From contig JAFRRT010000014.1 of NCBI GenBank assembly GCA_017427945.1, positions 1 to 64,000 on the forward strand: DNA of 64,000 nt, written 5' to 3'. The stretch's first letter is position 1; each line of letters begins with the position of its first letter. Both the position numbers and the translations under genes were made by a program. The DNA is from Muribaculaceae bacterium. GTDB lineage: Bacteria > Bacteroidota > Bacteroidia > Bacteroidales > Muribaculaceae. The notes below the pieces were generated by a model, which was not told the DNA's origin, did no database searches, and was given only the letters and a program-made list of their open reading frames with translations. Below, one piece after another: positions 22,315-41,613 of the stretch.

Positions 22315-22400
22315 GAAATCCCTAATATTTTTTAAGCGATCGCCCTATATATATCAACATACAGGAGAAGCACCACATTATGTGCTCACATACCTAAAGA

Positions 22401-22440
22401 CAGGAAACGCAACGGCTATCCGTCACGTTTCCTGCTTTTA
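22401..22440. terminator. terminator after nuoN
   Basis: CAGGAAACG (22401-22409) pairs with CGTTTCCTG (22426-22434), with an inner ACGG-CTAT-CCGT stem. It lies about 55 bases past the nuoN stop and marks the end of the nuo-atp-nuo gene block. The minus-strand run is TCTTT and the plus-strand run CTTTTA. Confidence 0.7.
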
Positions 22441-22491: not shown

Positions 22492-23976
22492 TTACTGGAT
22501 AGCAGCGAACATCGAGCTGATGGCATCCACAGCCCCGTTAATGTAGGCATAGATGCAGCTGATCAGACCGATGAAGATGATGCCAGCCACACACAAGATG
22601 AGGCCCAGACGCTCGGTCCAGTGACTCTTGATGGTGGGGATGACACAGTCGTCCTGACGCAGGAACATGGCCTTGACCACAAGCAGATAGTAGTACAACG
22701 AGATGATCGTGTTGACCAACGCGATGAGCACCAGAATGTAGATGGCTATCGAACCCTGTTGGCAAGCGCCCACAAAGATGAAGAACTTGCTGAAGAAGCC
22801 TGCGAACGGGGGAATACCACCCAGCGAGAACATCGCCAGCATCATCGTGAAGGCCAGCCACGGATTGGTCTTGAACAAGCCGTTGTAGTCATCCATGGTC
22901 ACCTTGCCGGTTTGACGCTCGATAGCGGCAATCACACCAAATGCAGCGAGGTTGCTGAAGATGTAAACCAGCACATAGTAAATCATCGAGGACATACCCA
23001 TCACGTTCACGGCAATGATACCGAGCATGATGTAGCCTGCCTGCGAGATTGACGAGAAGGCCAGGAAACGCTTAAGGTTGCGCTGACGGACGGCAAACAG
23101 GTTACCCAGCGTGATGGTGAGCACGATAACGGCATAGAGCATCCACTCCCATACCTGACCATAGGCCGATCCGAAGACCTGCACAAGGATAATCAGGAAC
23201 GAGAAGGCTGCAGCACCCTTGCTGATAACCGACAGATAGCTGGTCACAGCGGTGGGAGCACCCTGATAAACGTCGGCAGTCCACTGGTGGAAGGGCACGA
23301 GCGACAACTTGAAGCCTACACCGGCGATAACGAACGCCAGTGCCGCGATGAGCAAGGCTGAACGGTTACCGATGAGTGCAGTGGCAATCTCCTTGAAGTA
23401 GAGCGTTCCGCTCATGCCATACACAAACGAGATGCCCAACAGGAAAATAGCCGATGAGAAGATGGCCGTGAAGATATACTTAGCAGCGGCCTCATGTGAC
23501 TCATAATGGCGTTTCTCAAATGCCGCAAGGGCTGCGATGGGCAGCGAAGCGGTCTCGAGACCGATGACGAACAACAGGAAGTGGCGTGCCGATATCATCA
23601 GGAACATACCCAACAATGTCAACAACGTCAACTCATAGAACTCGCCACGGCGAACGCTCACAAAGTCGCTGTTGGTCCACTTGACAGCCTGCAGGAGCAC
23701 CAGCAGCACACCCACGTTGAGGATGTTCTTCATCACCCAAGTGGGGGCATTGGACTCGAACATGCCGCCAAAGGCCTCGCCCGTTGCTGCGGGGAAGCAG
23801 AAGCAGTATATCGTGTAGAGCGCCATCATGATGACCGTAAAGATGGGCATGTAACGCTGAGAGCGCTCAGGCATGAAAGTGTCGTAGATGAAAACAAGCA
23901 GGAAAACCAGCAACAGGCCTATCTCCTGCGGCATCAATAAGAATTGTGAATAATCCATCATATCTATATTATGCAA
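22492..23976 (-). CDS. nuoN: NADH-quinone oxidoreductase subunit N
   Basis: A 494-residue antiporter-like membrane subunit of Complex I, the usual family length (about 480-490). About fourteen hydrophobic helices are visible. The SLVPFHQWTADVYQGAPTA segment is the conserved NuoN signature around the discontinuous helix, and lysines such as in VKWTN lie where proton-channel residues are expected. It pumps ions next to NuoM. It is the last gene of the block, 24 bases after nuoM. Confidence 0.96.
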   Translation of the reverse strand: MHNIDMMDYSQFLLMPQEIGLLLVFLLVFIYDTFMPERSQRYMPIFTVIMMALYTIYCFCFPAATGEAFGGMFESNAPTWVMKNILNVGVLLVLLQAVKWTNSDFVSVRRGEFYELTLLTLLGMFLMISARHFLLFVIGLETASLPIAALAAFEKRHYESHEAAAKYIFTAIFSSAIFLLGISFVYGMSGTLYFKEIATALIGNRSALLIAALAFVIAGVGFKLSLVPFHQWTADVYQGAPTAVTSYLSVISKGAAAFSFLIILVQVFGSAYGQVWEWMLYAVIVLTITLGNLFAVRQRNLKRFLAFSSISQAGYIMLGIIAVNVMGMSSMIYYVLVYIFSNLAAFGVIAAIERQTGKVTMDDYNGLFKTNPWLAFTMMLAMFSLGGIPPFAGFFSKFFIFVGACQQGSIAIYILVLIALVNTIISLYYYLLVVKAMFLRQDDCVIPTIKSHWTERLGLILCVAGIIFIGLISCIYAYINGAVDAISSMFAAIQ

Positions 23977-24000
23977 TTTTTATCAGGTTAAACACTTTCA

Positions 24001-25533
24001 TCACAACACATTGGGCAGAGCAGCCTGCAAAGCCTCGACCACGGGGTAGAAGCTGCTCTTGATGATGTCGATAAAGAAGTTGGGGAAGCAACCGATGGCT
24101 GCCACAGCAAGGATAAGCGTGGCGGTCGAGAGGCGTTCCTCCCACGTAGCGTCGGTCAATGAGCGGTGATGCTCATCCTGTACCTCGCCAAAGAGCAATT
24201 TGGCGACAACACGCAGGATGTAAACCGCAGTCACGACAATCGACATGGTGGCCAGGATGGTGAGCACACGGTGGAACAGGTCGGTGTGCTGGAACGAGCC
24301 GAAGAAGATAGTCATCTCGGCAGCGAAACCGCTCAAGCCCGGCAGACCCAACGATGCCAAACCGGCAATCACGTAGCCCACACCCAGATAGGGCATGATG
24401 TGCATCATACCGCCCATGTCGCGGATGTCACGCGTGTGGGTGCGACCGTAAATCATACCGATGAGGGCAAAGAAGAGGGCCGTCATCAAACCGTGCGAGA
24501 GCATCTGCATCACAGCACCGGTCATCGCCGTGGTGTTGAACATGAGGATGGCAAACAGCACCATGCCGCAGTGGCTCACACTGGAATAAGCGTTGATGTA
24601 CTTGAGGTCGGTCTGCACACAAGCGCTGAAGGCACCATAGACGATGCTGAAGCCCGTCAGCAGCAGGAAAATCCATGCCAGCTGGTTAGCAGCAAACGGC
24701 ATCAGGTAGATGGCGATGCGGAAACAGCCGTAACCTCCCAGCTTCATCAACACACCAGCGTGGAGCATCGACACCGCGGTGGGCGCCGAAGCATGACCAT
24801 CGGGCGACCATGTGTGGAACGGGAACATAGCACCCAGGACGCCAAAGCCCACAAACGTGAGCGGGAACAACAGGTATTGCCAGTTGTGCGGGATGGCATC
24901 GTTATGGGCGATATCCAGAATATTCATCGTCAGGGGCTGACCTGCAGGAGCCGAGTGGAAATAGATACCGATGAGGCCCAACATCAGGAAGGCAGAGCCA
25001 CCCATCAGCATCAACGTCAGCTTCATGGCACTGTAGTTCTTGTTGCCGCTGCCCCACACACCAATCAAGAGGTACATGGGAATAAGTGCGACCTCATAGA
25101 ACATGAACATCGTGAACAGGTCAATCGAGATAAAGAAGCCAAACACACCCGTGGACAACAAGAAGAACCACATGAAGAACTGCCTGGGCAGCGGGTTCAT
25201 CTTCCACGAGGCGAAGACTCCGGCGAACACGATGAAGGCCGAGAGCAGTATCATCACCACGCTCACGCCATCGACGCCCAACGCCAGATGAACGTTGAAC
25301 GGGGCATACCACATCACGTCGCTGCGCAATATCATCTCACTGGTGTCACCGGCACCGCGTGCCTGCAGGAAAATGCTCACCAGCCAAAAGGCAAGCACCA
25401 TGAGCACACTGGCACCAATCACGGCAACGGTCCTGATGGCCTTGATGCCGCGGTTGCTGCACAGGGCCAGGCCTCCAAGCGTCAGCAGAGGCACGATCAC
25501 AAAGTAAATCAGTATATTATTGAAAATTTCCAT
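24001..25533 (-). CDS. nuoM: NADH-quinone oxidoreductase subunit M
   Basis: A 510-residue antiporter-like subunit of Complex I. It has MFPFHTWSPDGHASAPTAVSMLHAGVL-type family blocks, with the conserved lysine and glutamate (FMFYEVALIPMYLLIG) of the proton path. About fourteen membrane helices are present. It lies 32 bases downstream of nuoL and 24 bases upstream of nuoN on the same strand. Confidence 0.96.
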   Translation of the reverse strand: MEIFNNILIYFVIVPLLTLGGLALCSNRGIKAIRTVAVIGASVLMVLAFWLVSIFLQARGAGDTSEMILRSDVMWYAPFNVHLALGVDGVSVVMILLSAFIVFAGVFASWKMNPLPRQFFMWFFLLSTGVFGFFISIDLFTMFMFYEVALIPMYLLIGVWGSGNKNYSAMKLTLMLMGGSAFLMLGLIGIYFHSAPAGQPLTMNILDIAHNDAIPHNWQYLLFPLTFVGFGVLGAMFPFHTWSPDGHASAPTAVSMLHAGVLMKLGGYGCFRIAIYLMPFAANQLAWIFLLLTGFSIVYGAFSACVQTDLKYINAYSSVSHCGMVLFAILMFNTTAMTGAVMQMLSHGLMTALFFALIGMIYGRTHTRDIRDMGGMMHIMPYLGVGYVIAGLASLGLPGLSGFAAEMTIFFGSFQHTDLFHRVLTILATMSIVVTAVYILRVVAKLLFGEVQDEHHRSLTDATWEERLSTATLILAVAAIGCFPNFFIDIIKSSFYPVVEALQAALPNVL

Positions 25534-25565
25534 TGTATATCCTTTCTATTTTGTCAAGACCGTTA

Positions 25566-27563
25566 TTAGATGAATAGACAAACCATTGTGATTGCCGCAA
25601 GCAGCAGGGCTCCCAGCAAGTACACATACACATAAGCCTGAATGCTGCCCGACTGCAAACGACGGATGCCGTAGGAAACCGAGTTGGTGGTGTCGGCAAG
25701 CAGGTTGAAGAAGCCGTCGATGATGTGACGGTCGAACCAGGCGATGGGAACACAGATGGCCTGGAAAATCACCTTGTGGGTGATGAACTGGTAGAGCTCA
25801 TCCATGTAGAAGCGCTTGTAGGAAGCTGTCCACAGGCCGCGCATTGCATTGGCCATGCGCTCGGGCAACTTGTTTTCCTTGTAGTACATCACCGTGGCGA
25901 GAATGATACCAATCAATGCCACGCCGATGCTCGAACCGGCCACGGTCCAGTCAATGGAGGTGTGCAACGCATGACCGTCCCAGGTTACCAGGTCGTGGAA
26001 GGGCACGAAGCCGGCAACACACGAGATGGCGGCGAGGACAATCAGCGGCAGCGTCATCGTCCAAGGCTGGTCCTTGGGCTTGTGATGCTCATCATGAACC
26101 TCATGTTTCTTCCAGAAGAAGATGAGGTAGTAGATGCGGAACATGTAGAAGGCGGTCATACATGCCACCATCGACATCCACAGACCCCAACCCAAGCCGC
26201 GATGATAAGCGGCAACGAGGATTTCGTCCTTACTGAAGAAGCCGGCGAACGGGGGAATACCCGCGATGGCCAGACAGCCGATAAGGAAACAGATGCTGGT
26301 GATGGGCATGTACTTGTGCAAGCCGTGCATCTTGTCGTTCTCGTTGCTGTGAACTGCATGGATAATGGCACCGGCGCACAGGAAGAGCAACGCCTTGAAC
26401 ATAGCGTGGGTGAACAAGTGGAACATCGATGCCATGTAGCCCAAGCCGTAGCCCTCGTGAATCTCGACGAGGGCATTGTTGTTGGAGCTCACGGCGAGCG
26501 AAGTCATCATAAAGGCAATCTGCGAAATAGTCGAGAATGCCAGCGCACGCTTGATGTCGCTCTGGGTGCAGGCGATGGCAGCGGCATAGAATGCCGTGAA
26601 CGCGCCGACCACCAGGATGATGTTCATCGCGCCCTGCACAAGCACATAAAGCGGGAAGAGCCTTGCCACCAGGAATACACCGGCCACAACCATCGTTGCA
26701 GCGTGGATCAACGCCGAAACGGGCGTGGGGCCCTCCATAGCATCGGGCAGCCAGATGTGCAACGGGTACATCGCACTCTTACCGGCGCCGCCGATGAAGA
26801 TGAAGGTCAAAGCCCATGCCATAACCGAGCAGCCCATGAAGGTGGCGCCTCCAGCAGTGGTGATGGCGCTCTGGGCGGTTTCCAGGCTACCCGACATCGT
26901 GGGTCCGAAGACCAGCTTGTCGAAGTCGAAGGTATTGGTGTAGTAGCTCAGAATCATGATACCCAACAGGAAGAACAAGTCAGCCAGACGGGTGACGATG
27001 AATGCCTTCTTGTTGGCATGGTTGGCAGCGGGTGTGGAATAATAGAAACCGATGAGCAGGTAGGACGAAAGACCCACCATCTCAAAGAAGACGAAAATCT
27101 GGAAAATGTTGGTAGCTACCACCAGACCCAGCATCGAGAACGTGAACAGGGCTAGGAAGGCATAGTAACGCTGGAATCCCTTCTCGGCGTTGCCGTCGTG
27201 GTCGCTCATGTAACCAATGCTGTAAAGGTGCACCATGAAAGATACTGTGGTGATGACCACAAGCATCATGGCTGCGATGGGGTCAACCAGGACGCCCATA
27301 CGCACCACCAGCGTGTCGGTAAACGACAACCAGGCGGGATTAGCGACCACCACTGCCTGACGCACGCCATCCACTATCTGGCCCTGGCTGCTGCCAAAGA
27401 AATAGGTCAGCGCCACGCCATAAGCAAGGACGGTATCGACAAGCATGGCCAATACACCTATCCAGCCAGTGATTTTTCTACCCATTTTCACCCCGACGAG
27501 TCCCAGGAACAGGAACATGAACAGGGGTAATGCTACAACTATTATTGCTAAACTCAGTGGCAT
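25566..27563 (-). CDS. nuoL: NADH-quinone oxidoreductase subunit L
   Basis: A 665-residue distal antiporter-like subunit of Complex I, carrying the long lateral helix at its C-terminus. Landmarks are KSAMYPLHIWLPDAMEGPTPVSALIHAATMV and the FFSKDEILVAAY segment. A histidine-rich loop (HEVHDEHHKPKD) sits before the C-terminal helices. NuoL forms the far end of the membrane arm. The gene is 5 bases after nuoK. Confidence 0.96.
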   Translation of the reverse strand: MPLSLAIIVVALPLFMFLFLGLVGVKMGRKITGWIGVLAMLVDTVLAYGVALTYFFGSSQGQIVDGVRQAVVVANPAWLSFTDTLVVRMGVLVDPIAAMMLVVITTVSFMVHLYSIGYMSDHDGNAEKGFQRYYAFLALFTFSMLGLVVATNIFQIFVFFEMVGLSSYLLIGFYYSTPAANHANKKAFIVTRLADLFFLLGIMILSYYTNTFDFDKLVFGPTMSGSLETAQSAITTAGGATFMGCSVMAWALTFIFIGGAGKSAMYPLHIWLPDAMEGPTPVSALIHAATMVVAGVFLVARLFPLYVLVQGAMNIILVVGAFTAFYAAAIACTQSDIKRALAFSTISQIAFMMTSLAVSSNNNALVEIHEGYGLGYMASMFHLFTHAMFKALLFLCAGAIIHAVHSNENDKMHGLHKYMPITSICFLIGCLAIAGIPPFAGFFSKDEILVAAYHRGLGWGLWMSMVACMTAFYMFRIYYLIFFWKKHEVHDEHHKPKDQPWTMTLPLIVLAAISCVAGFVPFHDLVTWDGHALHTSIDWTVAGSSIGVALIGIILATVMYYKENKLPERMANAMRGLWTASYKRFYMDELYQFITHKVIFQAICVPIAWFDRHIIDGFFNLLADTTNSVSYGIRRLQSGSIQAYVYVYLLGALLLAAITMVCLFI

Positions 27564-27568
27564 AATCG

Positions 27569-27880
27569 TTAGAATTTCAGTTTAGTGATTTGGTTGATGT
27601 CCACCTTCCTGGCAATGCGGAACACATTGATGATGATGGCAAGGGCCAATGCCGTCTCGGCAGCCGCGATGGCAATCGCGAACAGCGAGAAGAACATGCC
27701 TTCCATCGAACCGGGGAACAGGTAACGGTTAAACACCACAAAGTTGATATCCACCGAGTTGAGCATCAACTCCAGTGAAATCATGATCGCAATCATGTTC
27801 TTACGGGTGATGAAACCGTAAACACCGCAGCCAAACATGATGAGGCTGGGAATAAGATACATAAACAGAGTCAAATCCAT
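27569..27880 (-). CDS. nuoK: NADH-quinone oxidoreductase subunit K
   Basis: A 103-residue subunit with three membrane helices. It has the conserved glutamates in MISLELMLNSVDINFV and AAAETALALAI that carry protons. The frame is open upstream to 27943, but I start at the ATG at 27878-27880. That gives the family length, and a GGAG-type ribosome site (AAAGGAGAG) precedes it. It overlaps no neighbour; nuoJ ends 23 bases upstream. Confidence 0.95.
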   Translation of the reverse strand: MDLTLFMYLIPSLIMFGCGVYGFITRKNMIAIMISLELMLNSVDINFVVFNRYLFPGSMEGMFFSLFAIAIAAAETALALAIIINVFRIARKVDINQITKLKF

Positions 27881-27903
27881 AATCTTTCTCTCCTTTCTCG
27901 TGT

Positions 27904-28419
27904 TTAGCGGCGACGGGCAATAACCACACCTCCGATGATACAAGCCAATAACAACACACTGATGGCCTCAAAAGGCAACAGATATCCGAACTTGTCGGTA
28001 CTTAACAGGAACTGGCCTATTTTCTCCATATTGACGTCAACGCCGCTGGATAGCAACTTGCCGCCAAAGTCCAAATAACTGAATAGCGCGAAGCCACAAA
28101 CCGCTACGCCAGCCAACGCAGCCGACAATCCCAGCCAGCGGCGGTGTGACGCGAGTGCATCGGCACTCTTGCCGGGCTCCTGCGTAAGCATGATAGCAAA
28201 CACAAACAGCACCATGATACCACCGGCATAGACGGCAATCTGCACAGCTCCCAGGAACTGATAGTCCATCTGGAAGTAGATGATGGCTGTGGCGAACAGC
28301 ACAAACAGCAGATAGGTTGCTGAGCGCAGAATCTTGCGCGTGGTAACCGTCAACACCGAGAAGACGATGATGGCGATCGCAACGATAAAGTATAAAATGA
28401 TGTTACCTACTGATTCCAT
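27904..28419 (-). CDS. nuoJ: NADH-quinone oxidoreductase subunit J
   Basis: A 171-residue subunit with five predicted membrane helices. The VQIAVYAGGIMVLFVFAIML segment is the conserved third helix with the pi-bulge that moves during coupling. Its start codon overlaps the nuoI stop by one base (TAATG), so translation is coupled. Confidence 0.95.
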   Translation of the reverse strand: MESVGNIILYFIVAIAIIVFSVLTVTTRKILRSATYLLFVLFATAIIYFQMDYQFLGAVQIAVYAGGIMVLFVFAIMLTQEPGKSADALASHRRWLGLSAALAGVAVCGFALFSYLDFGGKLLSSGVDVNMEKIGQFLLSTDKFGYLLPFEAISVLLLACIIGGVVIARRR

Positions 28420-29012
28420 TATTCTTTGTTTTCTTGAGGTTCTTGTTCGGGCTTGTCAGCAGCAGGCTTCTCCTGGGCCACGGGTGCCGCTACGGGCTTG
28501 GCGGGTGCAGGAGCAGCGGGTGCCGCAGGCTTTGCGGCGGGTGCGGGAGCGGGAGCGTCGTCCTTCTCGGGCAGGTAATTGAGCTGCTTATTGAGCTTGT
28601 CACGCGTGAATACCGCCTGCTCAAAGTCGTTGCTGAACTTGATGGCGTTGGTCGGGCACACCTGGACACAGAGTCCGCAGAAGGTGCAGCTTCCCAAGTC
28701 ATACATGTACTTGTCCAGTTTCATTTTCTTCTTGCCGTCAGGCAGTTCCACCATGCGTTTCGTGATGCTGATGGTCTGGTTGGGGCAGTTGCGCTCGCAG
28801 CTACCGCATGCGATGCACTTGTGGTAACCATTCTCATCATAGATGATTTCCAACGTCGCACGGAACCGCTCGGGAATTTGAAGTGTCGCGCGGTTCTCGG
28901 GATATTGCTCGGTCACCTTGGGAGTCACCAGCTCCTTGCCGGTGACCTCCATGCCCTTAATCAGGCTATAAAAGCCTTTAAAGATTGAGACGAAATACTC
29001 CTTAATGCTCAT
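28419..29012 (-). CDS. nuoI: NADH-quinone oxidoreductase subunit I with Pro/Ala-rich tail
   Basis: A 197-residue two-cluster ferredoxin subunit that passes electrons to NuoB. Cys 66, 69, 72 and 76 and Cys 109, 112, 115 and 119 form the two 4Fe-4S motifs. I start at the ATG at 29010-29012 (MSIKEYFVSIFKG), since the 43 codons upstream are not NuoI-like. Residues 151-197 form a low-complexity tail rich in proline, alanine, lysine and glutamate, which the core family lacks. It follows atpG by 37 bases with no terminator and resumes the nuo series after the ATP synthase genes. Confidence 0.94.
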   Translation of the reverse strand: MSIKEYFVSIFKGFYSLIKGMEVTGKELVTPKVTEQYPENRATLQIPERFRATLEIIYDENGYHKCIACGSCERNCPNQTISITKRMVELPDGKKKMKLDKYMYDLGSCTFCGLCVQVCPTNAIKFSNDFEQAVFTRDKLNKQLNYLPEKDDAPAPAPAAKPAAPAAPAPAKPVAAPVAQEKPAADKPEQEPQENKE

Positions 29013-29049
29013 ATTTCCTATGATTTTCTTGTTTTCGTTACATTTAGCG

Positions 29050-29934
29050 TCAGCGTTCAACCTGTCCACCGAGGATGTCAAGCAGCTCGGTGGTGATACC
29101 CTGCTGTCGCAGTTTGTTGTATTCCAGCTGCAACTCGTCAAGCAACTCCTTGGCGTTGTCGCTCGCCGCCTGCATCGCCATCACACGCGCACTCTGCTCG
29201 CTGGCCGCGCTCTGGATGAAGACATCTTGAAGCATCGACTTGACGTGCAACGGGAGCACGGTGTTAAAGATGGTGTTGGCGTCGGGCTCAAACAAGCACG
29301 GGCTGTTGGCGGCACGAGGGTCAACATTGTCTGCCAACCCCTGATAGCTCACGGGGAGCAACTGCTCGCGAACGAACACCTGCTTACCGGTGGAGATGAA
29401 GTGCATGTACAGCACCTCCACCCGGTCATAGGCATGCTCGAGGAAGCGTTGCTTCATCAGGTCGGTGAAGGCATACAAGTCTTCACTGCCACTGCGTGTA
29501 TTTAGTGCAACGCGTTCCATCTTGATGTCCTTTCCCGTGATCTTGGTGACAGCCTTGGTCATCTTCTTGCCCACAGGCACAACGGTGATACCCACCTGCT
29601 GGCCATACTGCTTGCGCACCTCGTTGATACTGGCAAGCAACTGCTTGAAGATGTTGACGTTAAAGCCACCGCACAGGCCGTCATCACTGCCGAACACCAC
29701 CAGTGCAATGTTCTGCACATCCCTCTCGACGATGAGAGGCGAGTCAAAGTGCTGGTCGGTAACCAGCAGGTGACTGATGACGTGCTGCACCATGTGGCGG
29801 TAGGGTGACAGACGCTGCAGCTGGCCGGTGGCCTTGCGCATCTTGGACGAGCTGATCATCTTCATGGCGCTCGTCGTCTTTTGCGTTGAGGCTACCGAGC
29901 CAATTCGCGTCTTGAGTTCTCTTAATGTTGACAT
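29050..29934 (-). CDS. atpG: ATP synthase F1 gamma subunit
   Basis: A 294-residue gamma subunit, the rotating central stalk. The N-terminal helix (LRELKTRIGSVASTQKTTSAMKMI) and the C-terminal helix (LLDELQLEYNKLRQQGITTELLDILGG) form the coiled coil that turns within the alpha-beta ring; VFGSDDGLCGGFN is the conserved mid-segment. It is the last ATP synthase gene. atpA lies 24 bases upstream, and nuoI starts 37 bases downstream. Confidence 0.97.
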   Translation of the reverse strand: MSTLRELKTRIGSVASTQKTTSAMKMISSSKMRKATGQLQRLSPYRHMVQHVISHLLVTDQHFDSPLIVERDVQNIALVVFGSDDGLCGGFNVNIFKQLLASINEVRKQYGQQVGITVVPVGKKMTKAVTKITGKDIKMERVALNTRSGSEDLYAFTDLMKQRFLEHAYDRVEVLYMHFISTGKQVFVREQLLPVSYQGLADNVDPRAANSPCLFEPDANTIFNTVLPLHVKSMLQDVFIQSAASEQSARVMAMQAASDNAKELLDELQLEYNKLRQQGITTELLDILGGQVER

Positions 29935-29958
29935 CTTGCGAACTAAAAAATTGCAGGA

Positions 29959-31554
<1,596 letters not shown>

Positions 31555-31566
31555 CTCAATAGCGGT

Positions 31567-32109
31567 TTATTTCTTTTGCAGTTGTAATCGCAATTCGTTC
31601 AATTCTCTCTTTACCGACGCGTCAAGCACCAATCCGTTGATCATCACGGTGAAACCGCCAATCAGTTCGGGGTCGATAACCTGCTCGATCTCGAGCTCCA
31701 TGGCACCCAGCCGCTTTTTCACGATGTCGATAATGGCATTGACCTCGGCCTCGGGCATAGGAACTGCCGTAGTGATGACCACATGGGCTATCTCATGCGC
31801 CTCGCGGTAGAGATCGACGTAGGCAAGGGAAATCTTCTGCAAATATTCGGCACGGTTGTTACGCACACACAGCAAGAGGAACTTGTCCAGAGAGCTGCCT
31901 GGCTTACCGCCCACAATCTTCAGCATGAAGGCACCCTTATCCTCGTCAGAGATTTCGGGGTTGAGCACGGCGCGCTTGAGTTCGTCGATAGCGGCGTAGC
32001 GGAAACTGAGCGTCTTCAAGAGCTCATAGATTTCCTTGGCGTCGCCGTTCTCGACGGCGAACTTGTATAGCGCCTTGGCATAACGGCGTGGAATCAGTCC
32101 GTCACTCAT
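31567..32109 (-). CDS. atpH: ATP synthase F1 delta subunit
   Basis: A 180-residue OSCP/delta subunit that joins the F1 head to the peripheral stalk. It has the typical helical N-domain (IPRRYAKALYKFAVENG) and the C-terminal GGFTVMINGLVLDASVKRELNELR block. Only six bases separate it from atpF. Confidence 0.95.
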   Translation of the reverse strand: MSDGLIPRRYAKALYKFAVENGDAKEIYELLKTLSFRYAAIDELKRAVLNPEISDEDKGAFMLKIVGGKPGSSLDKFLLLCVRNNRAEYLQKISLAYVDLYREAHEIAHVVITTAVPMPEAEVNAIIDIVKKRLGAMELEIEQVIDPELIGGFTVMINGLVLDASVKRELNELRLQLQKK

Positions 32110-32115
32110 ATCGCG

Positions 32116-32613
32116 TTAGTTTTTTGCCTCAACCTCACTCAGATATTGGTCAACAAGCGCTCTTTGGGCATCGTCCCCGGCAATGTTGCGACGAATCACC
32201 TTTTCGGCGATTTGCAACGCGAGGTCGCCCACTTCAAGACGCAGTTGCTTCTCGGTCTCCTTGCGCGCCTGCTCGATGGACACCTGGGCAGCTTCGGTCA
32301 CCTTCTTGGCTTCGATGGCGGCCTCGCTGCGAGCGTTCTCAATGAGCTGGTTGCGCATCTTTTCGGCCTCGCGCAGAATTTCGTTCTGCTTGGCGTGGGC
32401 CTCCGAGAGCACCTTGTCTGCTTCGGCCTTGGCGTTGTCGCGATGCATCTTAGCCTCCTGAGCGTATGCCACACCCTTGTCAATGAGGTCGGCACGGTCC
32501 TCCATCGACTTGATGATGAAGGGCCAAGCCCACTTGGCAAGGATGGCAAACAGGCACAGGAATGCGATGAACATCCAGAAAGCCAGGCCAAATTCAGGCT
32601 TGAAAAGTTCCAT
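32116..32613 (-). CDS. atpF: ATP synthase Fo b subunit
   Basis: A 165-residue b subunit, with one N-terminal membrane helix (FGLAFWMFIAFLCLFAILAKW) and a long charged helix that forms the peripheral stalk dimer. Length and composition fit the family. It lies between atpE and atpH, as in other Bacteroidota. Confidence 0.95.
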   Translation of the reverse strand: MELFKPEFGLAFWMFIAFLCLFAILAKWAWPFIIKSMEDRADLIDKGVAYAQEAKMHRDNAKAEADKVLSEAHAKQNEILREAEKMRNQLIENARSEAAIEAKKVTEAAQVSIEQARKETEKQLRLEVGDLALQIAEKVIRRNIAGDDAQRALVDQYLSEVEAKN

Positions 32614-32636
32614 CTGGTAAACCGGTTAAGGGTGGA

Positions 32637-32891
<255 letters not shown>

Positions 32892-32894
32892 TTA

Positions 32895-32916
32895 ATTGTT
32901 ATTGTTATTGTTATTG
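32895..32916. repeat. hexanucleotide repeat before atpE
   Basis: ATTGTT-type hexamers are repeated almost four times in the atpB-atpE spacer (AACAAT units on the mRNA). The spacer is unstructured and AT-rich, which may aid ribosome loading on atpE. The copy number could vary by slippage. Confidence 0.6.
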
Positions 32917-32954
32917 ATTATTTATTGAATTTCTTTGTTATTGTTTCCATATTA

Positions 32955-34052
32955 TCAATCCTTGACCTCCTCGGGCACTGCCTCCTGATGGTGGGCATGC
33001 ACATGGGCCATCGAGATGAACATGGTTGAAAGGATGGTGAACACATAGGCTTGGATGAAGCTCACCAGCGTGTCGAGCAAGAGCATGAAGAGCGACATCG
33101 CCAGCGAGAGCACTGTCATGCCTGCACCGACTGCCACGCCAAACATGCTGCCAAAGATGAAGATCAACAGGATGAAGACGATCACCACCATGTGGCCGCC
33201 CAGCATGTTCGCAAAAAGACGAATCATGAGGGCTACAGGCTTGGTGAAGATACCAAAGAGCTCGATGATCTGCATCATCGGCACGGGGCACTTGAGGGCG
33301 GTGGGCACCTCGGGCCAGAACATCTCCTTCCAGTAATGCTTGGTGCCTGTGAAGTTGGTGATCAGGAAGGTGGCGAGGGCAAGTACCGCCGTCACTGCCA
33401 GGTTGCCCGTCAGGTTAGCACCGCCGGGGAAGATCACCGTAAGGCCAAGCAGGTTCATCGTGAGGATGAAGAAGAACGCCGTGAGCAGGTAAGGCCCGTA
33501 TTTGGGAGCCTCCTTGCCCATGATGGGACGAATGGTGTCGGTATAGACGAAGTCCACTACCAACTCCAATGCTGCGGTGAAACGCCGCGGTGCCTTCATT
33601 CCGTTCTTGCGGTACCAGTTGCGCACCTTGAAGATCATCAACAACACCAACAGGGCAGAAATGAGTATTCCGGCCACATTCTTGGTGATTGACAAATCCC
33701 AGGGGCGGTACTCGCTGCCGTCAGGCAACATCTGAACCACCTTGTTGTTGTAGTCCCCACCCTCGGCAATCTTGAAGCCCTGATACTCAGATCCGTTCTC
33801 AAGACGCGACGACATGAAGACATGCCACGGACCGCCTTTTTCCTTGACGATGATGGGTAACGGAATGCGCTTGCTATGCGAGAAGGGCACCTCCCAGCCA
33901 TAGGTGTCGCCCAGGTGTTCAAAGATGATCTCCTGGGGATTCACCTCGGTCAGTCCGCCATGGCTATGGCGTGCCGCATCGGCATACCCCCACGCCATGA
34001 GCGCGAGGATGACGACCGCAATGATTGCTGTGATTGCTTTCTTCATAGTCAT
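32955..34052 (-). CDS. atpB: ATP synthase Fo a subunit
   Basis: A 365-residue a subunit, the stator channel for ions. It is longer than the E. coli protein (271) because of an N-terminal helix plus a roughly 110-residue extracytoplasmic segment, a known trait of Bacteroidota. The essential arginine is in MIRLFANMLGGH. The tail is rich in histidine (HVHAHHQEAV). The start may be at 34052 or two codons later at 34046. It follows atpC by three bases; the small atpI-like gene often found here is absent. Confidence 0.94.
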   Translation of the reverse strand: MTMKKAITAIIAVVILALMAWGYADAARHSHGGLTEVNPQEIIFEHLGDTYGWEVPFSHSKRIPLPIIVKEKGGPWHVFMSSRLENGSEYQGFKIAEGGDYNNKVVQMLPDGSEYRPWDLSITKNVAGILISALLVLLMIFKVRNWYRKNGMKAPRRFTAALELVVDFVYTDTIRPIMGKEAPKYGPYLLTAFFFILTMNLLGLTVIFPGGANLTGNLAVTAVLALATFLITNFTGTKHYWKEMFWPEVPTALKCPVPMMQIIELFGIFTKPVALMIRLFANMLGGHMVVIVFILLIFIFGSMFGVAVGAGMTVLSLAMSLFMLLLDTLVSFIQAYVFTILSTMFISMAHVHAHHQEAVPEEVKD

Positions 34053-34055
34053 GCA

Positions 34056-34289
34056 TTAATATAGGCACACGGACACCACATTATCCTTTACATCGGCAAC
34101 GCCACCGTGAATATCACGTTCCACGTTGTTGCCATCGGCGACATAGCTCATTTTGCCCTCGGTGAGGGCGGCGATGATAGCCGCGTGGTTCTTCAGCACC
34201 TGGAAACTGCCCATTACACCAGGAAGTGTCACGGACTCGACGGTGCCTTCAAACTCGATCTGCTCTGCCGATATGATTTTGAGTGTCAT
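34056..34289 (-). CDS. atpC: ATP synthase F1 epsilon subunit, short form
   Basis: A 77-residue epsilon subunit holding only the N-terminal beta-sandwich (MTLKIISAEQIEFEG..TLPGVMGSFQVLKNHAA). The C-terminal helical hairpin that inhibits ATP hydrolysis in many bacteria is missing. I start at the ATG at 34287-34289 because the 31 codons upstream do not resemble the family. The enzyme here may thus be poorly inhibited against running backwards (inference). Confidence 0.93.
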   Translation of the reverse strand: MTLKIISAEQIEFEGTVESVTLPGVMGSFQVLKNHAAIIAALTEGKMSYVADGNNVERDIHGGVADVKDNVVSVCLY

Positions 34290-34323
34290 GTTATATATAA
34301 ATAATGTATAAGAATAGCGCCGA

Positions 34324-35826
<1,503 letters not shown>

Positions 35827-35881
35827 TCAATTATCGACTTTTAGTGGTTTTATATGATTATTATTTTTTGTTCTCTCAATA

Positions 35882-36964
35882 TCATGAACCAAAGTACCAT
35901 CCCTGGGTCACGATGATTGCCATCACCACCAGGTTCACCAGGCCGATGGGCATCAGGTAACGCCATTCCAGAGCCAGCATCTGGTCGATACGCACGCGCG
36001 GGAACGACCAGCGGATCCAGAAGAAGATGAAGGTGATGAAGAAGGCCTTGCCGAGGAACCATACCACGCTGGGAATATAATCCATCACATGGTTGAAGCC
36101 CTCCCAACCAGGAATGTGCAACGGCATCCAGCCGCCCAGGAAGAGCAGTGTGGCGATTCCCGACACGATGAACAGGTTGAGGTACTCGGCGAGGTAGAAG
36201 AAGCCGAAGTGGATACCCGAATACTCGGTGTGGTATCCTGCCGTCAGCTCATGCTCGGCCTCGGGGAGGTCAAACGGGCCACGGTTGTTCTCGGCATTGG
36301 CGGCAATCATATAGATGATAAACGCGAGGATGGCAGGCAGATGGCCCTTAAACAGGAACCAGCCGTCTTGCTGTGCCTCGACGATGCCCGTGATGGACAT
36401 GGTGCCAGCCAAGCACACTATGGTGAGGATGGAGATGCCGCAGCTCAGCTCGTAGCTGATCATCTGGGCACCGCTTCGCATAGCGCCGATGAGGGTGTAC
36501 TTGCTGTTACTTGCCCAACCGGCGAGCAGGATGCCCAGCACGCCGATGGACGATACGGCAACAATGAAGAACACGCCGATGTTCATGTCAACAATCTGCA
36601 ATCCCTTACCCCAAGGCAGGCATGCAAAGGTGAGCATCGAGGCGATGAGCACCAGATAGGGAGCCAGTTTGAAGAGGAACTTGTCGGTGTGCCACAGGGT
36701 AATCAGCTCCTTCTGGAGAATCTTGATTACGTCGGCGAACACCTGCAGCAAGCCCCATTTGCCCACGCGCATCGGGCCCAGGCGGCACTGAATCCAACCG
36801 CAGACCTTGCGCTCGTAGAAGATGTAGAACATGGCGATGAGCGAATAGGCTACCAGCAGTCCCACTGCTACCAGCACACACTCGATTGTCGTGGTCAGCC
36901 ACGCGGGCATATAAGTCATCAGGAACTCATGAATCCAATTGGTGACTATTCCGAAGTCAAACAT
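35882..36964 (-). CDS. nuoH: NADH-quinone oxidoreductase subunit H
   Basis: A 360-residue membrane subunit forming much of the quinone site. It has about eight helices, with [21 protein letters not shown] and the hallmark [22 protein letters not shown]. It lies 45 bases after nuoCD. The next gene is atpD, not nuoI, which is the start of the unusual insertion. Confidence 0.96.
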
Positions 36965-37009
36965 ATCTCGTTTCCTTTTTAGTGGTTTTGTTCGTTGTTT
37001 ACTCTCGTT

Positions 37010-38644
37010 TTATCGGTCGATGTCAGGGATGACGAAGTCGAGCGATGCCGTGATGGTGATAAGGTCGGCAATCATGTTGTCGCGGCAGGTCAAATCCACC
37101 ACGCCAATCAGGTTGAAGCACGGCGACTGGAAGTGAACGCGCACCGGCTTGGTGCCGCCGTCACTCTCGATATAAACGCCAAAGGCACCGCGGCTAGCCT
37201 CAACCTGCTGGTACCAGTGACCTGCGGGGAGCTTCATCAGCTTGGGCACCTTGGGAGCGCAGTACTCACCCTGCAGACCCTCGGCCTCGAGCTTGTCACA
37301 AGCCTGACGCAGAATCTTGATGCACTCTTCCATCTCCTTCATACGCACCATGTAACGGTCCATTGAGTCGCCGTTCTCATAGACTACCTCGTTGAAGTCA
37401 AACTCGTTGTAGAGCGAATAGGGGTTGGTCTTGCGCACGTCGCAATGGAAACCGCTGGCACGTCCCGACGGGCCGGTGATGGCATAGGCGATGGCATCCT
37501 CCTTAGTGAGGATTCCCACGCCGGTCATGCGGTTAACGGCAATGACGTTGCCGGTAAAGAGCTTGTGGTATTCCTTGAGGTTCTTCTCGATGACGTCACA
37601 GGCATGACGCACATCCTTGACGAAGTCCTCATGCACGTCGGCCACCACGCCGCCGATGGTGCTGTAGCTCATCGACATGCGGGCGCCGCAGGTGCGGTCA
37701 AAGATATCATAAATGAGCTCGCGCTCACGGAATCCGTAGAAGAATGCGGTGGTAGCGCCCTGGTCCATCGTCAAGCAACCATAGCTCAACAAGTGGGAAG
37801 AGAGACGCATCAACTCGTCCATCATCAGGCGGATGAGCTCGGCGCGGTGAGGCACCTCAATACCGAGGGCCTTCTCGACACACATGCACATGCAGTGGCG
37901 ATTGATGTGGGCAGCCATGTAATCCATACGCTCGGTGTAAAGGAGCATCTGGGGATATGTGAGGTCTTCACACATCTTCTCGATGCCGCGGTGGATATAT
38001 CCGCTGACAACGTCAATTTTCTTGACAATCTCGCCATCGAGACTGGCGCGGTAGCGCATCACACCGTGCGTTGACGGGTGCTGCGGGCCCACGTTGACAA
38101 CATACTCGTCGTCCTCAAACACCTTGCCGTCGATTTTCTCGACCTTGCCGTTCTCGTCCTCGACCCAGCGGCACGTGTAATCCTCACCGGTCTCGTCCTC
38201 GAGACGCAGGGGATTGGTAGCGGGGTCATAGTCCTTGCGCAAGGGGTAGCCTACCCAGTCGTTGCGCAGGAACATGCGGCGCATGTCGGGATGGCCGATG
38301 AACACGATGCCAAAGAAGTCGTACACCTCGCGCTCCTGGAAATTGGCCACGGGCCATACGTCGCATACCGAGTGAAGACGCGGATTCTCGCGGTCGGGGG
38401 CTGTCACCTTGACGTGCAGCAACTCGTGGGTGCTGGTGTTGGTGAGGTAATAAACGCAACCAAAGGCCTCGGTCCAGTCCATGCCGACGACGGCGCTGAG
38501 CACGTCGTAGTGCAGTTGGGTCTTCAGGGCGCATGCCAGTTCATGCCACTGTGCATCGGCAACGGTCACCATCGGGAACTCACCGGTGGTATCGACCTGG
38601 GCCTGCGGGCACAACTGTGTGATTTTATCTTGTATCTCTGCCAT
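37010..38644 (-). CDS. nuoCD: NADH-quinone oxidoreductase fused C/D subunit
   Basis: A 544-residue fusion. Residues 1-170 match the 30-kDa NuoC, with RENPRLHSVCDVWPVANFQEREVYDFFGI and the LRKDY end. Residues 185-544 match the 49-kDa NuoD, with GPQHPSTHGVMRYRASLDGE and HRGIEKM. The C-terminal VVDLTCRDNM..ASLDFVIPDIDR is complete. The NuoD part forms the quinone cavity with NuoB. Fused NuoCD is common in Bacteroidota and enterobacteria. Confidence 0.96.
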   Translation of the reverse strand: MAEIQDKITQLCPQAQVDTTGEFPMVTVADAQWHELACALKTQLHYDVLSAVVGMDWTEAFGCVYYLTNTSTHELLHVKVTAPDRENPRLHSVCDVWPVANFQEREVYDFFGIVFIGHPDMRRMFLRNDWVGYPLRKDYDPATNPLRLEDETGEDYTCRWVEDENGKVEKIDGKVFEDDEYVVNVGPQHPSTHGVMRYRASLDGEIVKKIDVVSGYIHRGIEKMCEDLTYPQMLLYTERMDYMAAHINRHCMCMCVEKALGIEVPHRAELIRLMMDELMRLSSHLLSYGCLTMDQGATTAFFYGFRERELIYDIFDRTCGARMSMSYSTIGGVVADVHEDFVKDVRHACDVIEKNLKEYHKLFTGNVIAVNRMTGVGILTKEDAIAYAITGPSGRASGFHCDVRKTNPYSLYNEFDFNEVVYENGDSMDRYMVRMKEMEECIKILRQACDKLEAEGLQGEYCAPKVPKLMKLPAGHWYQQVEASRGAFGVYIESDGGTKPVRVHFQSPCFNLIGVVDLTCRDNMIADLITITASLDFVIPDIDR

Positions 38645-38668
38645 ATTTGAATGGATTATTATCGGGTT

Positions 38669-39277
38669 TTACTTGGCTTCATTCAGAGCTTCTACGTCAT
38701 ACTTGATGCCTTCCAGCTTCTCTTTGCGGTTTACGCCGCCAAAGTACTTCTGCACCTTGATCTTGCGCTGCAACTGCATCAAGGCATAGAAGAACGCCTC
38801 GGGACGGGGCGGGCAACCGGGCAGATAGACGTCCACGGGGATGATCTCGTCAACGCCCTTGACAACGCAGTAGCTGTTCTTGAACGGGCCACCGCTGACG
38901 GTGCACGAGCCGCATGCAATGACGTACTTGGGCTCGGCCATCTGCTCATAGAGGCGCTTTAACGCGGGAGCCATACGGTAGTTGATGGTACCCTGGCACA
39001 TGATGTAGTCGGCCTGACGGGGGCTGTTGCGCGCTACCTCAAAGCCGTAACGGGCCATGTCGTAGCGGGCAGCACCCAAGCACATGAACTCGATAGCGCA
39101 GCAGCTGGTACCAAAGCACAGCGGCCACAACGAGTTGCTCACACCCCAGTTCATCAGCTGGTCCAGCTTGCCAACAATGATGTTGGTGCCGCCGGCACGC
39201 AGTTGTTCTACCAGGTTATCGATATATTCATTGTCCTTGAAGTCCTCATGCTTCATCGACTTGATTTTCACTTCCAT
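38669..39277 (-). CDS. nuoB: NADH-quinone oxidoreductase subunit B
   Basis: A 202-residue subunit that holds the last iron-sulfur cluster (N2). Its ligands are visible in CFGTSCCAIEFMC, CGSCTVSGGPF and LPGCPPRPEA. I start at the ATG at 39275-39277 (MEVKIKSMKHEDF); the longer frame upstream only reads through nuoA. It overlaps the nuoA end by 10 bases, so the two are translationally coupled. Confidence 0.96.
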   Translation of the reverse strand: MEVKIKSMKHEDFKDNEYIDNLVEQLRAGGTNIIVGKLDQLMNWGVSNSLWPLCFGTSCCAIEFMCLGAARYDMARYGFEVARNSPRQADYIMCQGTINYRMAPALKRLYEQMAEPKYVIACGSCTVSGGPFKNSYCVVKGVDEIIPVDVYLPGCPPRPEAFFYALMQLQRKIKVQKYFGGVNRKEKLEGIKYDVEALNEAK

Positions 39278-39642
39278 CTCAACGCTCCTTTCTTCCAGGC
39301 ATAAGCCAGACCTAAAACGAGAATAACAAGGAAGGTACCCACTGCCAGCAGAGCCTGGCTGCCGATGTTCTTGCAGATGGTCGCCCACGGGAACAGGAAG
39401 ACCGTCTCGACGTCGAACATCAGGAACAGGATGGCAAACAAGTAATAGCCCACATGATACTGGGCCATCGAGTCGCCCCTGGTGGGGATACCGCATTCGA
39501 AGGGTTCACCCTTCTTCTTAGTGTAGCTGCGCGGTCCAATAAGCCACGCGATAACCAGGGCTCCGACTACCAATAACACACCAGTCAACGCTGCTGTGAT
39601 GGCAAGAGTCGTGCTCTGTACTCCGAAAATTGAGAAATCCAT
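39268..39642 (-). CDS. nuoA: NADH-quinone oxidoreductase subunit A
   Basis: A 124-residue subunit with three membrane helices and the conserved KKKGEPFECGIPTRGDS loop near the quinone site. FLMFDVETVFLFPWA is the second-helix signature. It is the first gene of the nuo-atp-nuo block and lies about 125 bases after a predicted transcription start. Confidence 0.96.
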   Translation of the reverse strand: MDFSIFGVQSTTLAITAALTGVLLVVGALVIAWLIGPRSYTKKKGEPFECGIPTRGDSMAQYHVGYYLFAILFLMFDVETVFLFPWATICKNIGSQALLAVGTFLVILVLGLAYAWKKGALRWK

Positions 39643-39774: not shown

Positions 39775-39807
39775 GCAAATTTACACAATATTTATTTAAC
39801 AACCAAA
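39775..39807 (-). promoter_or_regulatory. promoter of the nuo-atp-nuo block
   Basis: On the minus strand TTTG (39804-39807) and TAAATTTGC (39775-39783) are separated by exactly 20 bases, a full match to the Bacteroidota promoter. It is the only good promoter I found near the front of the 17-kb block. Confidence 0.7.
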
Positions 39808-39940
39808 CCAAAAGCGCACCATTTTTCGCACTTGTTAACAAATCGTTTGGCGTCCTCAGGCCCGGCCATTCGGCATCACTCCAAGGCCTTGTCCGCAGCC
39901 TCCTGGCAGGGCACTTCAGATATGGCGTGCAAGGGCGTTA

Positions 39941-39985
39941 AAAAGCAATGCCACAGCATCATTCGAGAAGATGTTGTGGCATTGC
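39941..39985 (-). terminator. terminator of the sigma factor operon
   Basis: GCAATGCCACA (39945-39955) pairs with TGTGGCATTGC (39975-39985), with GCATC/GATGT inside. On the minus strand a T-run follows. It lies about 70 bases after the Spy-like gene. The 410-base gap to nuoA also holds the nuo promoter and leader. Confidence 0.8.
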
Positions 39986-40510: not shown

Positions 40511-40915
40511 TTATTGAACGTCCTCGGGAAGTTCTCTCTCGTTGCTCATCATCACGGAGTCCTCATAGTTGAGGATGTCGTAGTCGCTCACTGCTCCGCT
40601 CATAATGAAATCGTCCAGATTGTCCCTGTCGTCGGTCAGCTTCTCGGCCACTGCCTGCACACCATTCATGTTTTCGGTAGAGGTCAAGTGGCTGAATATC
40701 GTCATCATGCACCACACGCCGGCAAACATGGCAGCCATGTAAACCAACGGTTTCACACGCTGCCACAACGTGGGTTTGACATCAACCTGGGTAATCTCAA
40801 CATCGGGCAGCATGTCGGCCATCCGCTGATTGAAGTCGGCAAAGTAATTCTCGGGCACCTTGAAGCCCGGGTCTTTCCCGTATTTGTTCAGTATTGTGGA
40901 GTCTTCTTGTTTCAT
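40511..40915 (-). CDS. probable anti-sigma factor, single-pass membrane protein
   Basis: A 134-residue protein with one membrane segment (VKPLVYMAAMFAGVWCMMTIF, about residues 55-75). A soluble N-terminal part reads KVPENYFADFNQRM, a phrase common at the start of Bacteroidota anti-sigma-like proteins. The acidic C-terminal part would lie in the periplasm. The start at 40913-40915 (MKQEDS) fits the operon spacing: 53 bases after the sigma gene. The anti-sigma role is inferred from its position and topology. Confidence 0.65.
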   Translation of the reverse strand: MKQEDSTILNKYGKDPGFKVPENYFADFNQRMADMLPDVEITQVDVKPTLWQRVKPLVYMAAMFAGVWCMMTIFSHLTSTENMNGVQAVAEKLTDDRDNLDDFIMSGAVSDYDILNYEDSVMMSNERELPEDVQ

Positions 40916-40968
40916 AACGCCTATTTGACTATCAAATGTCAATAAAGTTTAATCGTAGATGAGAAAAA

Positions 40969-41529
40969 TTATTCCGTTTCGGCCAAATATTGCTCGATTT
41001 TTTTGACAGCATGATGATAGGACGCCTTCAGGGCACCTTCACTGGTACCCAAAATCTCGCTCATCTGGTCATATTTCATCTCGTCATAGTAGCGCATGTT
41101 AAATACCAAGCGCTGCTTTTCGGGCAAGGTGGCGATAGCCTTTTGGAGGTTAATCTGGGCCTGGTCGCCGTCAAACCACTCGTCGCTCTCCAGCTGGTTG
41201 ACGAGGAAGCTCTCGTCATCGTCGATAGAGAGCTGGTTCATCACCTTCTTCTTGTTGACAAACGTGATGCTCTCGTTGATGGCAATCTTGTAGAGCCACG
41301 TCGAGAGCTTGGCATCGCCACGAAAGTTGTCGATGCTGGTCCACGCCTTGAGGAAGGTGTTCTGCAACACGTCATTGGCATCGTCATGGTCGATAACCAT
41401 GCGACGTATCTGCCAGTAAAGCTGTGAGCTGTAATGCTCGATCACCTTACCGAACGCTGCCTTGCAGGTCGCTTGATTGTGCAGTTGCTCAATCACTTGC
41501 GCCTCGTCATATTTTTCGCGTGCTGCCAT
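40969..41529 (-). CDS. ECF-type sigma-70 factor
   Basis: A 186-residue ECF sigma factor. Region 2 includes DANDVLQNTFLKAWTSIDNFRGDAKLSTWLYKIAINES, the standard -10 binding block. Region 4 includes LPEKQRLVFNMRYYDEMKYDQMSEILGTSEGALKASYHHAVKKI. I start at 41527-41529 (MAAREKYDEAQ), giving the usual length. It heads an operon with an anti-sigma-like gene and a Spy-like gene, and so probably controls an envelope stress response including its own operon. Confidence 0.92.
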   Translation of the reverse strand: MAAREKYDEAQVIEQLHNQATCKAAFGKVIEHYSSQLYWQIRRMVIDHDDANDVLQNTFLKAWTSIDNFRGDAKLSTWLYKIAINESITFVNKKKVMNQLSIDDDESFLVNQLESDEWFDGDQAQINLQKAIATLPEKQRLVFNMRYYDEMKYDQMSEILGTSEGALKASYHHAVKKIEQYLAETE

Positions 41530-41613
41530 TAAATAACTTTCAAGCCGTAAAGATAGCAAAAATTTTGCCAACCCGACCCAAAACCATCAGATTTTTATGT
41601 TTTTTTCGTTTTA

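Follow-up and report, generated by a model that had tools for sequence, protein, structure and literature searches.

An ATP synthase gene cluster inside the Complex I locus of Muribaculaceae and other Bacteroidales families, and a candidate RNA pseudoknot at one of its junctions in relatives

Results

An uninterrupted block of Complex I and ATP synthase genes

Here we describe a locus of a Muribaculaceae bacterium (assembly GCA_017427945.1) in which the genes of the F1Fo ATP synthase (atp) lie between those of respiratory Complex I (nuo). The window, that is the whole stretch of DNA that was analysed, comprises positions 1 to 64,000 of the forward strand of contig JAFRRT010000014.1. On its minus strand, from 39642 down to 22492, 18 genes spanning about 17 kb follow one another without a break in the order nuoA-B-CD-H, atpD-C-B-E-F-H-A-G, nuoI-J-K-L-M-N (Table 1). 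All 18 reading frames are open and every gene is named by NCBIfam profiles; several best matches fall under the curated cut-off (AtpC, 53.9 versus 67.25 bits), and the top-scoring models all correspond to the expected subunit. The longest open reading frames (ORFs) of nuoB, nuoI, nuoK and atpC begin too far upstream, and likely starts (39277, 29012, 27880 and 34292, respectively) were chosen by reading the sequence. The ORFs and profiles bear out the order, strand, coordinates and intact genes given in an earlier note on this DNA, and its gap lengths at the two nuo/atp junctions are equally correct.

The nuoC and nuoD genes are fused to encode one protein, and the locus lacks nuoE, nuoF and nuoG, which corresponds to the 11-subunit form of Complex I. 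The PF00006 matches in the genome are limited to AtpA, AtpD and a 707-aa frame that is presumably Rho, so that the block seems to hold the only F1Fo set of this genome. The c subunit, AtpE, carries E-G. Sodium-type c rings carry E-S or E-T, and the E-G of the window therefore fits proton coupling.

Table 1. Features of the nuo-atp-nuo block and its flanks, in the direction of transcription.
Feature	Position	Strand	Remark
Terminator-like hairpin	39940..39985	-	MFE -24.0 kcal/mol, then TTTTT (good T run); upstream of the nuo promoter-like site, end of upstream unit
Promoter-like site before nuoA	39776..39807	-	TTTG, 20-base spacer, TAAATTTG; 10/10 to Bacteroidota consensus
nuoA	39268..39642	-	Profile match
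nuoB	38669..39277	-	NF011391, 342.6 bits; ORF reaches 39496, likely start 39277
nuoCD (fusion)	37010..38644	-	NuoC part 27-140, NuoD part about 180-544
nuoH	35882..36964	-	Profile match
nuoH-atpD junction	35824..35881	-	58 bases, A-rich; no stable hairpin or TAnnTTTG box
atpD (F1 beta)	34324..35823	-	TIGR01039, 769 bits
atpC (F1 epsilon, short)	34056..34292	-	TIGR01216, 53.9 bits (cut-off 67.25)
atpB (Fo a, long N-terminal part)	32955..34052	-	Profile match
atpE (Fo c)	32637..32879	-	TIGR01260
atpF (Fo b)	32116..32613	-	Profile match
atpH (F1 delta)	31567..32109	-	Profile match
atpA (F1 alpha)	29959..31554	-	TIGR00962, 729 bits
atpG (F1 gamma)	29050..29934	-	Profile match
atpG-nuoI junction	29013..29049	-	37 bases, unstructured in the window; site of pseudoknot or hairpin in relatives
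nuoI	28419..29012	-	Profile match
nuoJ	27904..28419	-	Profile match
nuoK	27569..27880	-	Profile match
nuoL	25566..27563	-	Profile match
nuoM	24001..25533	-	Profile match
nuoN	22492..23976	-	Profile match
Terminator-like hairpin after nuoN	22396..22434	-	MFE -24.0 kcal/mol; poor T run (TCTTT)
MFE, minimum free energy.

The arrangement is shared across the family and by five further families

As the earlier note had suggested, we searched related genomes for this gene order. Among public genome contigs, the best 80 of 176 confirmed stretches with an AtpG relative (61-94% identity) all carry at least one nuo/atp seam in the order of the window, and none contradicts it, as far as the contigs reach. 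The nearest named loci carry the labels Muribaculaceae, Candidatus Sodaliphilus, Prevotellaceae, Porphyromonadaceae or Bacteroidales metagenome-assembled genomes.

For the family of the window (f1), 197 genomes from 26 genera were sampled from a larger group. NuoH and AtpD fall in one read-through match in 50 of the 197, among the matches listed, and in 47 further genomes they adjoin in 45, the other two being cut by a contig end (G191) or having an AtpD fragment only (G065). Across 60 stretches selected from different genera, the nuoH-atpD gap measures 19-161 bases in every case and the atpG-nuoI seam is present in 58, the other two stretches ending before it. The union of all checks shows the NuoH-AtpD adjacency in at least 137 of the 197 genomes, with 2 cut and 58 left unchecked; these sample sets overlap and are not independent, since the named loci and the genomes are partly the same assemblies. 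NuoH also adjoins AtpD in the single-contig genomes G153 and G103.

An order-wide sample of 81 genomes, one per family except for two of f1 (80 families), extends the NuoH-AtpD adjacency to five further families (f18, f24, f43, f49 and f79), and the complete 18-gene order was read in one genome of each (L090-L094). In the remaining sampled families, the two genes lie far from each other or on separate contigs, or a match at the set limit is missing for at least one of them. The operons are apart in all 19 genomes of f76 in which both genes matched. Passages of a study of Bacteroides fragilis describe a nuo operon, BF638R_0841-0850, that encodes an 11-subunit Complex I without NuoEFG, the electron donor of which is given as unidentified (PMC7002350). 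This Complex I resembles that of the window in subunit composition and differs in its separate operon, as ten locus numbers for ten nuo genes would leave no room for atp inside. The earlier claim that other Bacteroidales keep nuo and atp apart agrees with f76 and probably with B. fragilis.

Where the operons are separate, nuoI comes directly after nuoH, at spacings of -4 to 37 bases in 8 loci, a configuration that corresponds to the empty site of an atp insertion. The separate atp operons of f76 (L095) and f9 (L098) have the same atpD-C-B-E-F-H-A-G order as the window, but are placed elsewhere, with nuoH and nuoI adjoining (L096, L097); in f3 (L103) even the internal atp gene order differs. 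A tree of NuoCD, NuoH, NuoM and NuoL divides ten embedded rows (five of f1 and one each of f18, f24, f43, f49 and f79) from five separate rows with an ultrafast bootstrap (UFBoot) of 100. The AtpD and AtpA tree has the same split, versus f76 and the rest, with a UFBoot of only 49. Both values were read from the Newick strings; the figures of 99 (nuo) and 88 (atp) belong to the neighbouring branch after rerooting. In the atp tree, f66 stands out by a very long row, which may include an AtpD cross-match, since L108 has no atpA. A single insertion of the atp operon is the simplest reading of these patterns, though not a proven one.

Both operons of f76 are on one contig in 7 of the 19 genomes, within about 18-69 kb of each other in 5 of the 7 (G283, which holds L095 and L096, G313, G322, G318 and G311), a closeness that is perhaps an old neighbourhood.

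We take the family S24-7 ('Ca. Homeothermaceae') to be the present-day Muribaculaceae. The composite nuo-atp locus is already known and has been in print since 2016: passages of Ormerod et al. place the F-type ATP synthase of S24-7 inside the Complex I locus, and list F-type ATP synthase in 26 genomes, an 11-subunit Complex I without NuoEFG, Nqr in 27 genomes, and one genome, H5, that lacks both complexes together (PMC4936053). The window shares with this description the position of the ATP synthase genes and the 11-subunit Complex I, with no nuoE, nuoF or nuoG in the locus (a genome-wide search for NuoG-like proteins was not made). Its genome also shares a Na+-Nqr located elsewhere, as judged from nqrE, the sole Nqr subunit searched, which is over the cut-off on contig C19. 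Those passages give neither the gene order nor an analysis of the junctions, and mention neither an RNA element nor other families with the locus (PMC4936053). In the literature that we searched, from which subscription papers and preprints were mostly absent, we found neither a further statement on the arrangement nor a description of the RNA element presented below. The extension to five further families and this RNA are what is new here. That the arrangement would be unusual for this organism, as the earlier note implied, is accordingly not supported; that note had also held that wide reports across the order would count against it, and this is largely what we find, in print for S24-7, in at least 137 of the 197 f1 genomes and in the five families.

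Promoter-like sites are clearly enriched only before nuoA

Sites were called promoter-like if they matched at least 9 of 10 positions of the Bacteroidota consensus, TTTG/TAnnTTTG, and background rates were derived from mononucleotide shuffles. A perfect site precedes nuoA in the window. In embedded loci such sites are present before nuoA in 41 of 60 cases (21 perfect; shuffles 10.7%), whereas before atpD they are at the shuffle level (7/129; shuffles 5.3%). Single matches were found before nuoH (1/128; shuffles 1.6%), nuoCD (1/70; 1.8%) and atpA (1/136; 1.6%). In the separate operons such a site precedes atpD in 3 of 5 cases (shuffles 14%), nuoA in 4 of 8 and nuoI in 2 of 8.

Neither junction of the window has a stable hairpin (MFE of -0.95 kcal/mol for nuoH-atpD and 0.0 kcal/mol for atpG-nuoI) or, by reading, a TAnnTTTG box, which supports the earlier observation that both are without hairpin and -7 box. 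Terminator-like hairpins flank the block on either side; a terminator scan listed neither of them, and it demands a longer T run than the one after nuoN. With a promoter-like site before nuoA, a hairpin after nuoN and nothing convincing at the junctions, the block is likely one transcription unit. The single transcript proposed in the earlier note is partly supported, by the uninterrupted block and the enrichment before nuoA: likely on sequence evidence, short of proof.

An identical 13-base stretch, AAAACCACTAAAA, is present before nuoH, in the nuoCD-nuoH gap (36965-37009), and before atpD (35839-35851).

The atpG-nuoI junction is structured in many relatives

Next we consider the same junctions in relatives. 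In a first sample, the nuoH-atpD gaps (69 gaps, 28-106 bases) have a z below -2 in 2 cases and an MFE below -8 in 4, and the nuoCD-nuoH gaps in 2 and 6 of 76, respectively. At atpG-nuoI these numbers are 18 and 36 of 83. The structured cases are confined to the longer gaps: an MFE below -8 was found in none of the 38 gaps of up to 44 bases, mostly from close kin of the window, compared with 36 of the 45 longer ones, of which 18 have a z below -2. A second, family-wide sample of atpG-nuoI is less structured (13/58 with an MFE below -8). Terminator-like hairpins take the place of the pseudoknot described below in the atpG-nuoI gaps of L092 (f49) and L093 (f43). We read the structures at this junction as a sign that the species carrying them can adjust nuoI-N expression separately from that of atp; for the plain hairpins, an origin as the remnant of an old atp terminator is equally simple.

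Part of this structure shares a common core, defined as TATGCC, CATGCC or TACCG followed at a distance of 20-75 bases by its complement. The core is present in 26 of 142 atpG-nuoI gaps compared with none of 129 nuoH-atpD and none of 135 nuoCD-nuoH gaps, a count to be read knowing that the patterns were picked after seeing the sequences and that the control seams are shorter. It forms the inner helix of an H-type pseudoknot, in which an outer helix of variable sequence encloses the inner 5′ strand; examples are L065 (10910-10976), L079 (10908-10972), L163 and L155, between atpG and nuoI in each case. Across the 26 loci (L062, L075, L076, L082 and L143 included), the outer arms of each locus score 464 in sum with their own partner, compared with a best of 384 in 5000 arm swaps. 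Only 9 of the 26 loci have their own arm as the top-scoring partner, and the outer helix scores low in L062 (6.6), L142 (9.8) and G118 (10.8).

For nine TATGCC-type loci (alignment A3, trimmed by hand), pairing holds in 87% of cells, both partners change in 8 of the 18 pairs, and the covariation score was reached by none of 500 shuffles; 112 of the 500 attained the count of further pair types, and 7 of the 9 inner-helix pairs are invariant. A covariance model built from this type, R1, hit 9 of the 197 f1 genomes once each, all in the genus of the window (the filters lose weak matches). Seven of the nine are model-building assemblies and one more is the assembly of L075, which leaves G201 as the only new genome, so that the search establishes single copy rather than spread. 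A dispersed repeat was rejected as the source of the element on the basis of this one match per genome. Among 41 sources, R1 also matched L075, L076 and L084, none of which was used to build it. The R1 search found no pseudoknot in the window.

Alignments A1, A2 and A4 failed on the variable helix, and the second, ATACCGG type was searched by pattern instead of a covariance model. In ten genomes of four genera, chosen as known or likely carriers, the pattern matched the seam in all ten, four of them new to the definition. It also matches elsewhere in 7 of the 10, and a backward control likewise matches in 7 of 10 (21 times in G098). Outer-helix scores are 10.8-36.8 at nine junctions and 15.8 at the tenth (G050, the same as L160), compared with at most 13.6 at 13 other loci, which are part of the non-junction matches of the pattern; by this score the weakest junction, G118, is indistinguishable from chance.

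Applied to the 61 gaps of at least 60 bases, a free pseudoknot finder returned p values below 0.1 for 26, 14 of them at the floor of 0.005, and chose other helices in several rows. Rfam 15 gave no match above cut-off in the seven core-bearing loci searched: the L067 stretch had two matches far below cut-off, and the six others had none up to E 2. The SAM-II and preQ1 riboswitches are bacterial cis-regulatory RNAs of the H-type pseudoknot kind. The seam element resembles them in its two interleaved helices, short first loop, A-rich third loop and position before a coding start, and differs in lying inside an operon rather than at its head and in the lack of an Rfam match in those seven loci. 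We put forward, as a tentative proposal that falls a little short of even, that many members of the family carry in it a new class of H-type pseudoknot, which would sense or tune the energy state and determine the amount of distal Complex I per ATP synthase, as part of a regulated bioenergetic circuit, and that the lineage of the window lost the element or never gained it.

Downstream of the pseudoknot, L085, L160, L161 and L165 contain TAGATTTG or TGATTTG stretches in the final 10-35 bases before nuoI; these resemble the Bacteroidota -7 element and are possibly a promoter with a short leader.

Genes flanking the block

Directly downstream of the operon, at 19640-22219, the window encodes an 859-aa leucine-rich-repeat protein that ends, as judged from its motifs, in dockerin-like repeats. 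Upstream, at 40511-41571, are the gene of an ECF (extracytoplasmic function) sigma factor and that of a small protein, for which an anti-sigma factor is our guess.

Discussion

The account that we consider quite probable takes the block as one composite respiratory operon of 18 genes. The complete F1Fo operon, eight genes from atpD to atpG, would have come to be placed between nuoH and nuoI in a common ancestor of several Bacteroidales families, which would since have inherited the nuo-atp-nuo arrangement. In the window, the block would most likely be transcribed as one unit from the promoter before nuoA to the hairpin after nuoN, and a Complex I without NADH module would be made together with ATP synthase.

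Several points weigh against this account. The T run of the hairpin after nuoN is poor, and the terminator scan did not list this hairpin. Internal promoters can elude a consensus scan, and promoter-like sites before nuoI are in excess in embedded loci (6/143, or 4.2%, versus 1.0% in shuffles). A sigma-70-type scan has a weak match (9/12) at 35885-35857 in the nuoH-atpD gap, the scan yielding 16 matches over the region versus 15.1 expected from shuffles. In both samples together, the atpG-nuoI gap has an MFE below -8 more often than the nuoH-atpD gap (49/142 versus 11/129), which argues against plain read-through at this point in relatives. The 58 unchecked f1 genomes and the atp tree, which leaves the split undecided, belong here as well.

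An alternative, a differential composite operon, retains the single promoter and lets RNA structure at atpG-nuoI lower or regulate nuoI-N relative to atp, such that the ratio becomes adjustable. It draws on the core that is present at this seam and at neither control seam, on the own arms that outscore the swapped ones, on the covariation score and on the element at the junction of four genomes outside its definition. Against it stand the absence of the element from the window, the lack of strong structure in the short gaps of the closest relatives and in 45 of the 58 gaps of the family-wide sample, and the limits of the covariation evidence, that is the pair-type count, the invariant inner pairs and the weak outer helices. 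We regard it as possible but rather doubtful. Unlikely in our view is that nuoA-H, atpD-G and nuoI-N are expressed independently, each with its own start or stop signals, their adjacency being a frozen accident without regulatory meaning. The structured atpG-nuoI gaps of relatives, the terminator-like hairpins of f49 and f43 and the matches before nuoI favour such independence, but the window gaps have neither stable hairpin nor TAnnTTTG box, the matches before atpD do not exceed shuffles, and the nuoH-atpD gap has stayed short in six families. An error of assembly or binning, or an insertion that arose recently in this genome alone, has no support beyond the draft state of the genome (39 contigs) and is dismissed, as the order recurs in 80 public contigs as far as they reach, the NuoH-AtpD adjacency in the single-contig genomes and the full order in five other families.

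While the composite operon thus remains our preferred account, the notion in the earlier note that one transcript fixes the ratio of pump to synthase is weakened: whether the ratio is fixed is doubtful for the group, given the RNA structure at atpG-nuoI in many relatives and the differences in translation and decay that occur within operons.

The electron donor of the pump would probably be reduced ferredoxin or some other donor. The only PF01512 (NuoF-like) match in this genome sits beside an [FeFe] hydrogenase on a contig other than that of the operon, and with NuoF-like and NuoE-like proteins next to a hydrogenase and nqrE present, NADH would probably be oxidised by Nqr while the pump uses another donor. 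A donor other than NADH has been proposed for the 11-subunit Complex I of B. fragilis (PMC7002350). The gene row at L114 (5353-9560; G000 C20) consists of a NuoF-like protein, a group A6 [FeFe] hydrogenase and a NuoE-like protein, after ribosomal protein S1, and is a candidate electron-bifurcating hydrogenase.

Taken together, a proton pump and a proton-driven ATP synthase of a gut bacterial family are linked in one gene block, an arrangement that seems to have been retained since before several families diverged. In some relatives, the RNA at the seam offers a handle on how one transcript may yield unequal amounts of the two complexes. We infer that making both machines together is of benefit, and the arrangement makes it testable whether bacteria gain by co-producing them.

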